Origin: a bacterium
GTDB lineage: Bacteria > SM23-31 > JAUVVT01
NCBI GenBank assembly: GCA_030616165.1
Contig: JAUWXV010000256.1
Span: 1 to 5,230, forward strand
DNA length: 5,230 nucleotides
Reading direction: 5' to 3'
Shown piece by piece: positions 2,411 through 5,230 of the stretch. Position 1 is the first letter of the stretch. Each line of letters opens with the position of its first letter. The notes beneath the pieces were generated by a model. The model ran no database searches. It saw only the letters and a program-made list of their open reading frames with translations, and was not told the DNA's origin. A program made the translations under genes and the position numbers.

Positions 2411-2445
2411 CTTACTTTCTTTGAAAAGAAAGTAAGCAAAGAAAC
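2411..2445 (+). repeat. Stop-adjacent hairpin with A-rich tail, copy 1 (after murA)
   Basis: The left arm CTTACTTTCTT (2411-2421) pairs perfectly with AAGAAAGTAAG (2426-2436) around the loop TGAA, giving an 11-bp stem. The tail CAAAGAAAC (2437-2445) follows. The element starts on the base after the murA TAA. A diverged copy occupies the same position after der (5198-5230). There is no downstream T-run, so it is not a classical intrinsic terminator. It may be a mRNA 3'-end stabiliser or processing site, a factor-assisted terminator, or a dispersed REP-like repeat. Confidence 0.8.
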
Positions 2446-2454
2446 TTTTAACTT

Positions 2455-2489
2455 ATTCCATATCCCTTGCTTTGCAAGGGATATGGAAT
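2455..2489 (+). terminator. Perfect 16-bp hairpin downstream of murA, possible terminator
   Basis: Bases 2455-2470 (ATTCCATATCCCTTGC) are perfectly complementary to 2474-2489 with a 3-nt loop TTT. This is the strongest inverted repeat in the window and lies 18 nt after the first hairpin. It is well placed to end the recN-murA transcript before the DUF512 gene. It lacks a clean U-tract: the following bases are TGGAATTTAAAAATTT. Termination is therefore only the likeliest role; mRNA 3'-end protection or a mobile-repeat remnant are alternatives. A perfect palindrome fits either strand. Confidence 0.5.
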
Positions 2490-2553
2490 TGGAATTTAAA
2501 AATTTCAAATTCATACATAGGAAATTAAGAGTTTACTTGAAGTTTGTTTATAT

Positions 2554-3831
2554 ATGAAAATCTTAAAAGTAATTGAAAATAGGACCGGATGGAAGGCAGG
2601 GCTGAGGGAAGGCGATAGGATTATTTCTATAAATAATAATATTGTTAATGACCAAATTGACTATAAATATTATATTAGCGAACAGTATGTTGATTTAAAC
2701 ATATCAAGAGGTAATGGTGAGATTAAAATTGAGATAGAAAAAGACCCCGATGATGACCTCGGAATTATCACAGATAGTTTTAATATCAAAAGATGTAAGA
2801 ATAAATGCGTTTTTTGTTTTATTGACCAGAATCCGTCTGGAATGAGGAAATCAATTTATATTAAGGATGAAGATTATAGACTCTCATTTCTTTATGGTAA
2901 TTACATAACAATGACCAATCTTAATAAAAAGGATATCAAAAGGATAATCGAGCAGAGACTCAGTCCATTATATGTATCAATGCATGCAGTTGATAAAAAG
3001 GTCAGAAAATTTTTATTGGGCGGAAATGAGAAAGATAATATTATTGATAAAATAAAGATATTGATAAGTAATGATATTGAACTTCATGGACAGGTCGTTT
3101 TATGCCCTGAAATCAATGATGGAAAAATTTTAAAAGAGACTGTGTTTGAACTTTTTAAATACTATCCCTATTTCAGGTCTCTTTCGGTTGTACCAGTTGG
3201 TTTGACAAAATTTAGAACAGACTTATATCCAATAAAAAACATAAATAAAAATTATTCAAAAAAGATAATCAAAAAAATAGAGGAATTTCAGAAAAATTTT
3301 AAAAGGCAAATAGGTGAAAATTTTGTTTATCCGAGTGATGAATTTTTTATATCGGCGGATATTCAATTGCCGCCAAAAGGATATTACGATGGTTTCTATC
3401 AGATTGAGAATGGAGTGGGTATAACAAGGAAATTTCTTGATAATTTTTATATTCAATCAAAATTATTTCCGAAGGAAATTCCAGCAAGAAAAAGAATATA
3501 CATAGTTACAGGAATTCTTATGTATAATATTATTAATAATGAAATAGTTCCGATACTCAAAAAGATAGAAAATCTTGAGGTTTTCATGATTAGAGTAAAA
3601 AATAGATTTTTTGGGAGCACAGTCACAGTGAGCGGTCTTCTGACTGGGAGGGATATTGGAGATACCATAAAAAAGTTAGAACCTGATGGATTGGTTATTT
3701 TGCCGCCAGATTGTGTTAATAATGAAGGATTGTTTCTCGATGACTGGAGCCTTAAAGACATAAAAAAATACACTTCTTGTGAAATTAAAGTATTTCGGGG
3801 AAATTTTTTTTCTGAATTAATTAAAGATTAA
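2554..3831 (+). CDS. DUF512 family protein: PDZ domain plus radical-SAM-like Fe-S protein
   Basis: This 425-residue protein belongs to the DUF512 family of predicted Fe-S enzymes, whose reaction and substrate I do not know. Residues about 1-62 form a compact PDZ-like domain (TGWKAGLREGDRIISINNN, 11-29). A cysteine cluster, CKNKCVFCFIDQ, follows, with C81, C85 and C88 in the CX3CX2C spacing of radical SAM [4Fe-4S] sites. Family hallmarks come next: GMRKSIYIKDEDYRLSFL (96-113), LSPLYVSMHA (136-145), LHGQVVLCPEINDG (177-190), VVPVGLTKFR (212-221), YPSDEFF (259-265) and ENGVGITR (285-292). The C-terminal domain has VKNRFFGSTVTVSGLLTG (348-365) and FLDD (394-397). There is no signal peptide or membrane segment, so it is probably cytoplasmic. 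The ATG at 2554 has no Shine-Dalgarno sequence, but the frame has a stop (TAG) 36 nt upstream, no ATG, GTG or TTG between, and the PDZ starts right at this Met. It sits 46 bp upstream of der, a pairing I recall from Clostridia, so a link to ribosome assembly is possible but unproven. Confidence 0.93.
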   Translation: MKILKVIENRTGWKAGLREGDRIISINNNIVNDQIDYKYYISEQYVDLNISRGNGEIKIEIEKDPDDDLGIITDSFNIKRCKNKCVFCFIDQNPSGMRKSIYIKDEDYRLSFLYGNYITMTNLNKKDIKRIIEQRLSPLYVSMHAVDKKVRKFLLGGNEKDNIIDKIKILISNDIELHGQVVLCPEINDGKILKETVFELFKYYPYFRSLSVVPVGLTKFRTDLYPIKNINKNYSKKIIKKIEEFQKNFKRQIGENFVYPSDEFFISADIQLPPKGYYDGFYQIENGVGITRKFLDNFYIQSKLFPKEIPARKRIYIVTGILMYNIINNEIVPILKKIENLEVFMIRVKNRFFGSTVTVSGLLTGRDIGDTIKKLEPDGLVILPPDCVNNEGLFLDDWSLKDIKKYTSCEIKVFRGNFFSELIKD

Positions 3832-3832
3832 A

Positions 3833-3859
3833 TTAAACATTTTTTAATAAAACTATAAT
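3833..3859 (+). promoter_or_regulatory. Candidate sigma-70-type promoter in front of der
   Basis: A perfect -10 hexamer TATAAT lies at 3854-3859 in the 46-bp gap between the DUF512 gene and der. The best -35 candidate, TTAAAC at 3833-3838, matches TTGACA at only three positions and has a short 15-bp spacer. Transcription would begin near 3866, leaving a leader of about 12 nt. The region is very AT-rich, so a chance TATAAT is possible. If real, der could be expressed independently of the gene upstream. Confidence 0.4.
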
Positions 3860-3877
3860 AAAATTTTAGAACGAGAA

Positions 3878-5197
3878 ATGTCGATTCCACTGGTATCAAT
3901 CGTTGGTCGTCCCAATGTTGGAAAGTCAACAATTTTTAATAGAGTAATTAAAAAAAGAAAAGCTATAGTGGACAGAACTCATGGAGTTACAAGAGATAGG
4001 AATACCGTTGAAACGGATTGGAACGGATTTGAATTTTTATTGACTGACACTGGTGGATATATTCCTGATACTGAGAAAGAAATTGAAAAAGAGGTAAAAG
4101 AACAAGTTGAAATATCTATAAATGAGTCTGATGTTATACTATTTGCTGTTGATGTGAAGACTGGTTTAACAGGACTTGATAGTGAGATAGCAAAGCTTTT
4201 AATAAAAAGTGGAAAGAAGGTTATACCAGTGGTGAATAAAGTTGACAATGAAAATACGGAGATATTAGCGGATGAATTTTACGGACTTGGGCTCGGTGAA
4301 CTTGCAAAAATCTCTGCTTTAAATGGAAGAAATATTGGTGATTTACTTGATCGAATTACCGAAAGTCACTCATTTAAAAAGGTTATTTCAGAAGAAGAGG
4401 ACATAGAAAAAGAGGTTAAAGTTGCAATTATCGGCAAGCAGAATGTCGGTAAATCTTCATACGTAAATGCGGTTCTTGGTTCAAAAAAGATGATTGTAAC
4501 CGAAATTCCGGGAACTACAAGAGATTCTGTCGATTCCGTATTGAAATACAAAAATAAAATAATAAGAGTTATCGATACCGCCGGTCTGAAAAAATTAAAG
4601 AAGATAAAAGAAAATGTTGAATATTACAGCAGCATTCGTACCTTTGAAAGTATTGACCGAAGTGATATATCAGTTGTGATGGTCGATGCTCTGGAGGGGA
4701 TAACTAATAATGATTTGAAGATAATTGACTACTGCGTGAAGAAATTGAAGGGGGTGCTTTTGGTTTATAATAAATGGGATATTATTGAAAAAAAAGAGGG
4801 AAAATATAGTTCTCTCGAAAAAGAGACCTATTTTAAGTTAAAAAGTATGGATTTTATCCCAATGATAACCATCTCTATCTTAAAAAACATAAGAGTATTC
4901 AATGTTCTTGATATGTGCATTGAAATTTTTAAAGAAAGGATAAAAAAGGTAAATATAAAACATTTAAATGAAGTATTAAAAAATGCTTTGGAAAAGTCTC
5001 CTCCTCCAAGTTTTTCAGGTAAAAAGGTCGATATAAAATTCGGAACTCAAGTTTCAACTTCACCTCCTATTTTTTTGCTTTTTGTAAATATTCTTAAGGG
5101 TATAAAAATACAATATGAAAGGTATCTTAAAAGAGAGATTAGGAACAATTTTGGTTTCAAAGGTGTTCCTATTGTCATAAAATTTAGGAAAAAATAA
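3878..5197 (+). CDS. der: Ribosome-assembly GTPase Der (EngA), two tandem GTPase domains
   Basis: Der is an essential GTPase that binds the maturing 50S ribosomal subunit. This 439-residue protein has the family's full architecture. GTPase domain 1 shows G1 GRPNVGKS (10-17), G2 GVTRDR (T38), G3 DTGG (57-60), G4 NKVD (120-123) and G5 SALNG (146-150). An acidic linker (about 163-180) leads into domain 2, with G1 GKQNVGKS (186-193), G2 PGTTRD (211-216), G3 DTAGL (233-237) and G4 NKWD (298-301). The G5 segment of domain 2 reads SILKNIRV (333-340) where SAL is usual, and its G1 has KQ where RP is usual. The KH-like C-terminal domain spans about 355-439, with TQVSTSPP (390-397) and FGFKGVPI (425-432). 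The ATG at 3878 places the P-loop ten residues in, as expected, although only a weak purine stretch (ACGAGAA) precedes it. It probably shares a transcript with the DUF512 gene and may also have its own promoter. A hairpin begins at the base after its stop. Confidence 0.98.
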   Translation: MSIPLVSIVGRPNVGKSTIFNRVIKKRKAIVDRTHGVTRDRNTVETDWNGFEFLLTDTGGYIPDTEKEIEKEVKEQVEISINESDVILFAVDVKTGLTGLDSEIAKLLIKSGKKVIPVVNKVDNENTEILADEFYGLGLGELAKISALNGRNIGDLLDRITESHSFKKVISEEEDIEKEVKVAIIGKQNVGKSSYVNAVLGSKKMIVTEIPGTTRDSVDSVLKYKNKIIRVIDTAGLKKLKKIKENVEYYSSIRTFESIDRSDISVVMVDALEGITNNDLKIIDYCVKKLKGVLLVYNKWDIIEKKEGKYSSLEKETYFKLKSMDFIPMITISILKNIRVFNVLDMCIEIFKERIKKVNIKHLNEVLKNALEKSPPPSFSGKKVDIKFGTQVSTSPPIFLLFVNILKGIKIQYERYLKREIRNNFGFKGVPIVIKFRKK

Positions 5198-5230
5198 CTT
5201 GCTTCTTAAAAAAGAAGTGAGCAAGAAAAC
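5198..5230 (+). repeat. Stop-adjacent hairpin with A-rich tail, copy 2 (after der)
   Basis: The left arm CTTGCTTCTT (5198-5207) pairs with AAGAAGTGAG (5212-5221) across the loop AAAA. This gives a 10-bp stem with two adjacent G-U wobbles, followed by the tail CAAGAAAAC (5222-5230) at the window edge. Start position relative to the TAA stop, arm sequence, loop size and tail all correspond to the element after murA (2411-2445). The element may continue beyond the window. As with copy 1, no U-tract is visible. Confidence 0.75.

Follow-up and report, generated by a model that had tools for sequence, protein, structure and literature searches.

In the 5,230-nucleotide stretch of bacterial DNA examined here (the window; contig JAUWXV010000256.1, SM23-31 lineage), the genes murA and der are each followed directly by a hairpin with an A-rich tail. 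These two hairpins are best explained, with a probability of about 0.72, as two end copies of a non-autonomous, palindromic mobile element with pseudoknotted ends, resembling either the REPINs, which are paired repetitive extragenic palindromic (REP) sequences, or the miniature inverted-repeat transposable elements (MITEs). The explanation draws on a repeat family and its positions, an inverted-pair architecture found in several genomes, covariation of both stems, a patchy spread across phyla, dispersed multi-copy units and empty sites in relatives, all of which are established here.

As stated in the original prediction and as read directly from the sequence, each hairpin starts on the first base after a TAA stop codon, that of murA at 2408–2410 and that of der at 5195–5197. 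The murA hairpin (2411–2436, forward strand) is composed of the arms CTTACTTTCTT and AAGAAAGTAAG, which form an 11-bp stem (S1) closed by the loop TGAA, and is directly followed on its 3′ side by the A-rich tail CAAAGAAAC (2437–2445), the putative linker L3 of a pseudoknot. The der hairpin (5198–5221, forward strand) has the arms CTTGCTTCTT and AAGAAGTGAG, a 10-bp stem and the loop AAAA, and its tail CAAGAAAAC (5222–5230) runs to the last base of the contig, which thus stops inside the element. The two tails are identical at 7 of 9 positions, in agreement with the earlier count. Fold energies of −10.8 kcal/mol (z −3.8) for the murA hairpin and −9.3 kcal/mol (z −3.0) for the der hairpin were each equalled by 1 of 200 shuffled sequences.

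Both hairpins belong to a large family in the host genome (G000; 3.74 Mb in 343 contigs). The 20-mer AAGAAAGTAAGCAAAGAAAC has 66 matches in this genome at up to three mismatches, compared with 3 for the reversed control. A covariance model built from 37 copies and applied to both strands at a threshold of E ≤ 0.05 gave 151 matches, merging to about 100 separate hairpins. The proposal of a genome-wide family is borne out by this number, since further copies are abundant and are not scattered regardless of stop codons. The murA copy (G000:C310:2411-2452; 69.8 bits) falls into the best-scoring class of these matches, and the der hairpin belongs to a class common to L008:1431-1472, L026:281-322 and L146:3103-3144. 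The core of the family is ACTTTCTT-loop-AAGAAAGT followed by CAAAGAA. Within the host genome two types of end can be distinguished, type A with ACTTTCTT and AAGAAAGT followed by CAAAGAAAC, and type B with ACTTCTT and AAGAAGT followed by CAAGAAAAC. The murA copy is of type A and the der copy of type B, so the two elements represent opposite ends of a single kind of unit; they are related, as had been suggested, but they are not two copies of the same thing.

In complete units of the host genome (L008, L009, L019, L029) an A end faces a B end over about 100–180 bp, with a variable second hairpin in between, and each complete unit contains one hairpin per orientation. Across genomes, inverted hairpin pairs bound units of about 100–650 bp with the A-rich tails pointing inward. 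Four loci of Herbaspirillum (G021) have inverted hairpins at a spacing of 464–471 bp; the spacing is about 400 bp in G032, and in Pseudomonas 41 copies align over about 700 bp with a hairpin near each side. The consensus of the Pseudomonas mendocina group places the hairpin pair within a larger palindrome of about 700 bp, the outer arms of which are GGTTCTTCGCATT and GGTTGACACCGGACTGGCAA. In G800, one unit is nested at the centre of another, so that the hairpins follow each other in the order ++−−; the nested arrangement at L334 (G800:C8, 663–1739), found also at L335, has 253-bp offsets on either side and suggests insertion of units at the apex of palindromes already present. A modular mixing of repeats was observed at loci of G033 (e.g. 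L248 and L244), where the module AAGCGRAGCGGRGCAAAGAAACCTTGCAAC is repeated directly without the stem and with the tail in common.

The loop of the hairpin is complementary to the bases behind the tail. In a first test, loops and tails scored a mean of 8.70 against 5.27 ± 0.34 with shuffled tails, none of 1000 shuffles reaching the observed value. With each distinct loop represented by one tail, at least four contiguous Watson-Crick pairs with post-tail bases were formed in 49 of 80 cases, while shuffling gave 9.8 ± 2.8 (maximum 20 in 2000). In the paired helices the partner begins 0–3 nt after CAAAGAA. Coordinated changes within single genomes provide the stronger argument, because shuffles leave shared ancestry in place. 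Thus, loop and tail read TGCTA/TAGCA or TGTTG/CAACA in G006, AAGG/CCTT or TGGGG/CCCTA in G033, and CACCC/GGGTG, CGTC/GACG or TGCGC/GCGCA in G249; in G697 two tails pair with one and the same loop, each in its own register. Stem S1 covaries at its base, and for S1 and the loop-tail stem (S2) together 37 cells with double changes were counted, compared with 10.0 ± 2.4 after shuffling. Paired S2 cells amount to 88% in the alignment of the window's own family. The geometry, with an S1 of 11–13 bp, an 8-nt A-rich linker and an S2 of 4–8 bp, fits a putative H-type pseudoknot. In all lineages the hairpin is succeeded by CAAAGAA; this sequence was required by the search pattern, and its invariance is therefore partly imposed by the query.

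Direct arguments for mobility come from dispersed copies and from sites that lack the unit in relatives. Caballeronia zhejiangensis has a near-perfect palindrome of 639 bp (L358:1442-2080) between genes for an Asp/Glu racemase and a hydrolase. The aligned flanks are separated by 688 bp in L358 and by 26 bp in the relative L362, whose two genes are 12 bp apart; two Paraburkholderia have about 110–125 bp at this site. An oxidoreductase gene of Caballeronia NK8 is followed, 6 nt behind its stop codon, by a unit; the site spans 723 bp as opposed to 81 bp in C. zhejiangensis (L360/L364). The best match of the 613-bp NK8 unit (query 843–1455) lies on another NK8 replicon, for which 25 matching places were reported. 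The Pseudomonas stretches yielded no usable pair of occupied and empty sites. A short non-coding unit with inverted repeats, present in many dispersed copies and variably occupying orthologous sites, shares these properties with MITEs.

The distribution across bacteria is patchy, as for mobile DNA. The exact 20-mer occurs in at least 113 stretches of the GTDB collection, and the matches listed include the Pseudomonas mendocina group, Lysobacteraceae, Herbaspirillum, Desulfuromonadales, Gemmiger and other Clostridia, Saccharibacteria and others. A two-arm pattern was recovered in 39 of the 42 genomes holding the 20-mer and never with the reversed control. In even samples of two phyla, a strict pattern was present in 4 of 379 Patescibacteria and 21 of 398 Pseudomonadota, with no match for the reversed control. 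Among 60 relatives of the window genome, carriers were limited to the genome itself, one relative of the same family and one distant genome with a single copy. A BLAST match, by sequence alone, was also obtained on an Ilyobacter (Fusobacteriota) replicon. Single exact matches at L037, L070 and L119 lack either the paired arms or loop-tail complementarity and may be due to chance. Among viral contigs, one stretch contained the pattern; no phage match and no viral carrier was found.

Positions relative to genes were scored on 20 contig stretches and the window, which together comprise about 9% of the genome, using naive gene calls. Of the 24 hairpins in this sample that face a stop codon, 17 have their first base no more than 6 nt from it, compared with 3.2 ± 1.2 (maximum 8 in 2000) upon random placement in the same gaps. 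The predicted adjacency to stop codons holds in this sample. Half of the stop-facing hairpins (12) start on the very next base; five of these 12 were scored −1 by the script owing to a register shift of the regular expression and were counted as next base. Stops of all three kinds, TAA, TGA and TAG, precede hairpins, and the stop is therefore not just a part that the element brings along. A further 18 hairpin ends face a start codon instead, mostly 17–59 nt upstream of it. The 43 scorable intergenic hairpins are distributed over co-directional (39), convergent (3) and divergent (1) gaps; divergent gaps make up 19 of all 170 gaps in the sample, and hairpins are depleted there.

The exact stop adjacency, the depletion from divergent gaps and a conserved, RNA-like pseudoknot are what would be expected of a gene-end signal acting in RNA, be it an unusual terminator, a 3′-end processing site or a stabilizing pseudoknot. 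Against such a signal, start codons are faced almost as frequently as stop codons, and the ends occur as inverted pairs, with one hairpin in each orientation per unit. An intrinsic terminator consists of a G+C-rich hairpin with a U-tract, whereas here the tail is A-rich and both orientations occur. Moreover, units are absent from the same site in relatives, their occurrence among relatives is patchy, and one Caballeronia unit is situated in an operon-like gap. In view of both end orientations, of the unit in such a gap and of the 39 co-directional gaps, the roles originally considered, as a marker of transcription-unit ends or as an RNA 3′-processing or stabilizing site, are not supported. A gene-end signal acting in RNA is accordingly regarded as improbable.

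A closer competitor is a canonical REP/REPIN family spread by a REP-associated tyrosine transposase (RAYT, TnpA_REP), with which the element shares hairpins, inverted doublets in extragenic space, about 100 copies and the absence of a visible target duplication. Two features define REPs, a GT[AG]G tag at the hairpin foot and a RAYT (PMC8266576, PMC6006769, PMC3733652), and REPs are described as not being conserved between species (PMC6006769). Here, of 210 unique hairpins, one on the plus strand and none on the minus strand has GT[AG]G at 0–2 nt 5′ of its foot, no REPtron (a RAYT gene with flanking copies) was detected around the Y1_Tnp genes examined, and the core is conserved across phyla. 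The idea of a REP-like repeat hence holds for the likeness but fails for canonical REPs. REPINs and bacterial interspersed mosaic elements (BIMEs; PMC3116915, PMC8266576) likewise are short inverted hairpin pairs, multicopy, mainly intergenic and non-coding, without visible target duplication. The present element differs from them in the missing foot tag, the 3′ CAAAGAA tail on the other side, the loop-tail pseudoknot, a stem core kept across phyla, the adjacency to stop codons and the missing REPtron.

The search for a mover gave a divided picture with regard to RAYTs. The host genome contains seven Y1_Tnp genes, but none is flanked by hairpins, and several carrier genomes have no such gene as scored by PF01797. 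Around the Y1_Tnp genes examined, no hairpin was found up to a distance of about 1.5 kb, except at L146, where one lies at about 0.9 kb with a gene in between. Two closely related versions of one RAYT-like protein are encoded at L146 (1354–1881) and L145 (1381–1878); in L146 the gene sits between moxR-like and DUF58-like genes, with an A and B hairpin behind the DUF58-like gene. Y1_Tnp is present in 26 of the 42 genomes holding the 20-mer. No Y1_Tnp match was obtained in six carriers (G013, G022, G025, G032, G038 and G335), of which G022 is an isolate with 8 copies. In Pseudomonadota, 19 of 21 carriers and 194 of 377 other genomes have Y1_Tnp (Fisher p = 4e-4, uncorrected for phylogeny), while Patescibacteria display no association (2 of 4 carriers, 176 of 375 others). 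A RAYT as obligatory partner is not supported, although the association in Pseudomonadota remains; a link between Y1_Tnp and the element is possible, not general. Taken with the missing tag and the conserved core, these results make spread of a canonical REP family by a RAYT unlikely, even though it is the strongest of the rivals. GIY-YIG nucleases were also considered as a partner and dismissed, their four matches in the genome showing no link to hairpins. Beside one Y1_Tnp gene (L144, about 1800–2300) a degenerate tandem repeat was noticed, with spurious open reading frames (ORFs) containing repeated WGQARLRK and PGDRPGYG.

Further known systems resemble the element in part. Bacterial MITEs share with the element a non-autonomous nature, inverted repeats, a length of 100–650 bp, dispersed copies and sites that are empty in relatives. 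In contrast to MITEs, in which a transposase-specific terminal repeat is conserved, the conserved part here is an internal, pseudoknotted hairpin, the outer arms vary by lineage, and no parental insertion sequence (IS) was identified, no systematic search for one having been made. The GTAG- and CGTC-tagged palindromic repeats described in a multi-phylum survey (PMC3733652) are small stem-loop families occurring as singles and dimers; the GTAG foot tag is absent here, and pseudoknots are not mentioned in that work. The ends of IS200/IS605 elements (PMC6006769) have structured single-strand ends, a conserved unpaired segment by the foot and extra pairing outside the stem. Here, however, the ends are inverted, no tnpA is found inside, and pairing connects loop and tail instead of a guide and the cleavage site.

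The window and eight other loci had no match in Rfam release 15 at the gathering score. No description was found in the open-access full-text literature, where the one examined occurrence of the motif letters was a recombineering primer; subscription literature was outside this scope and may contain a prior description. H-type topology would also be compatible with a structured non-coding RNA acting with a protein partner, such as the repeats of type III toxin-antitoxin systems. At L046 (reverse strand, about 1738–1960), from a metagenome-assembled genome of Clostridia, about six 39-nt units, each with hairpin and tail, stand in tandem, an array resembling either a locally expanded repeat or an antitoxin array of type III. 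Yet copies are in general dispersed rather than arrayed, whole units are near-perfect palindromes, no partner gene recurs and the Rfam search was negative, which renders a structured RNA of this kind very improbable.

Several observations weigh against a mobile element with pseudoknotted ends. In the window, S2 would be formed by TTTA (2447–2450, forward strand) and the loop TGAA (2422–2425). In the window's lineage S2 is short, weak and made up of A-U and G-U pairs only, so that the case for the pseudoknot rests on other lineages. A wobble count of 7 A-C versus 3 G-U, based on few non-redundant stem bases, does not settle strand or RNA versus DNA. The two junctions that were read have no visible target-site duplication, so that excision or insertion stays a putative event. 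All pairs of occupied and empty sites stem from Burkholderiaceae and none from the window's lineage. Within the genome stretches, neither a transposase nor any other recurrent partner was found beside the elements, whose neighbours are spurious read-through ORFs and ordinary chromosomal genes. Finally, the nearest relative (G043, same family; murA 75% identical) has a diverged hairpin behind the murA stop (L255), in the tail of which the palindrome TCCGCC...GGCGGA is inserted between C and AAAGAAA; the insertion in the window may therefore be old.

Beyond the murA end, the window contains a second hairpin (2455–2489, forward strand; arms ATTCCATATCCCTTGC and GCAAGGGATATGGAAT), belonging to the inner part of the unit, and a short third hairpin (2490–2507, forward strand) detected by folding. 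The region 2450–2520, which includes this long second hairpin, folds with −28.3 kcal/mol (z −7.9). The sequence of the second hairpin varies among copies, its arms still being complementary. Compared with the complete units, the murA copy lacks the expected opposite B end and looks truncated.

The mobile element favoured here would be a unit bounded by two inverted hairpins with inward-facing tails, each end forming an H-type pseudoknot from the stem core ACTTTCTT/AAGAAAGT, the linker CAAAGAA and a second stem between the loop and the bases behind the linker. A trans-acting enzyme may recognize this end as folded single-stranded nucleic acid, which is the likeliest mechanism. The same enzyme would copy or move the unit, and an HUH/Y1-type single-strand transposase would be the most natural candidate. 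Placement behind stop codons could reflect a target preference combined with selection against hits in genes and promoters, and any effect on neighbouring mRNA would be a side effect. A more far-reaching proposal, rated at somewhat less than even odds, is that the family represents an undescribed class of mobile non-coding elements in at least six phyla, with H-type pseudoknot ends recognized by a non-RAYT enzyme and with insertion behind stops and into palindrome centres.

The sequences of REP-like repeats are usually specific to a lineage. In this family, the core is kept from Pseudomonas to Saccharibacteria and Clostridia while loop and tail co-vary, which points to one recognition mechanism travelling between phyla. 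The loop-tail pairing gives a precise handle with which the enzyme could be sought, and the family makes a case in which recognition of nucleic-acid shape by a mobile element can be tested. The element also accounts for many repeats that lack annotation, for spurious ORFs and for breaks in assemblies, of which the end of the window contig is one.

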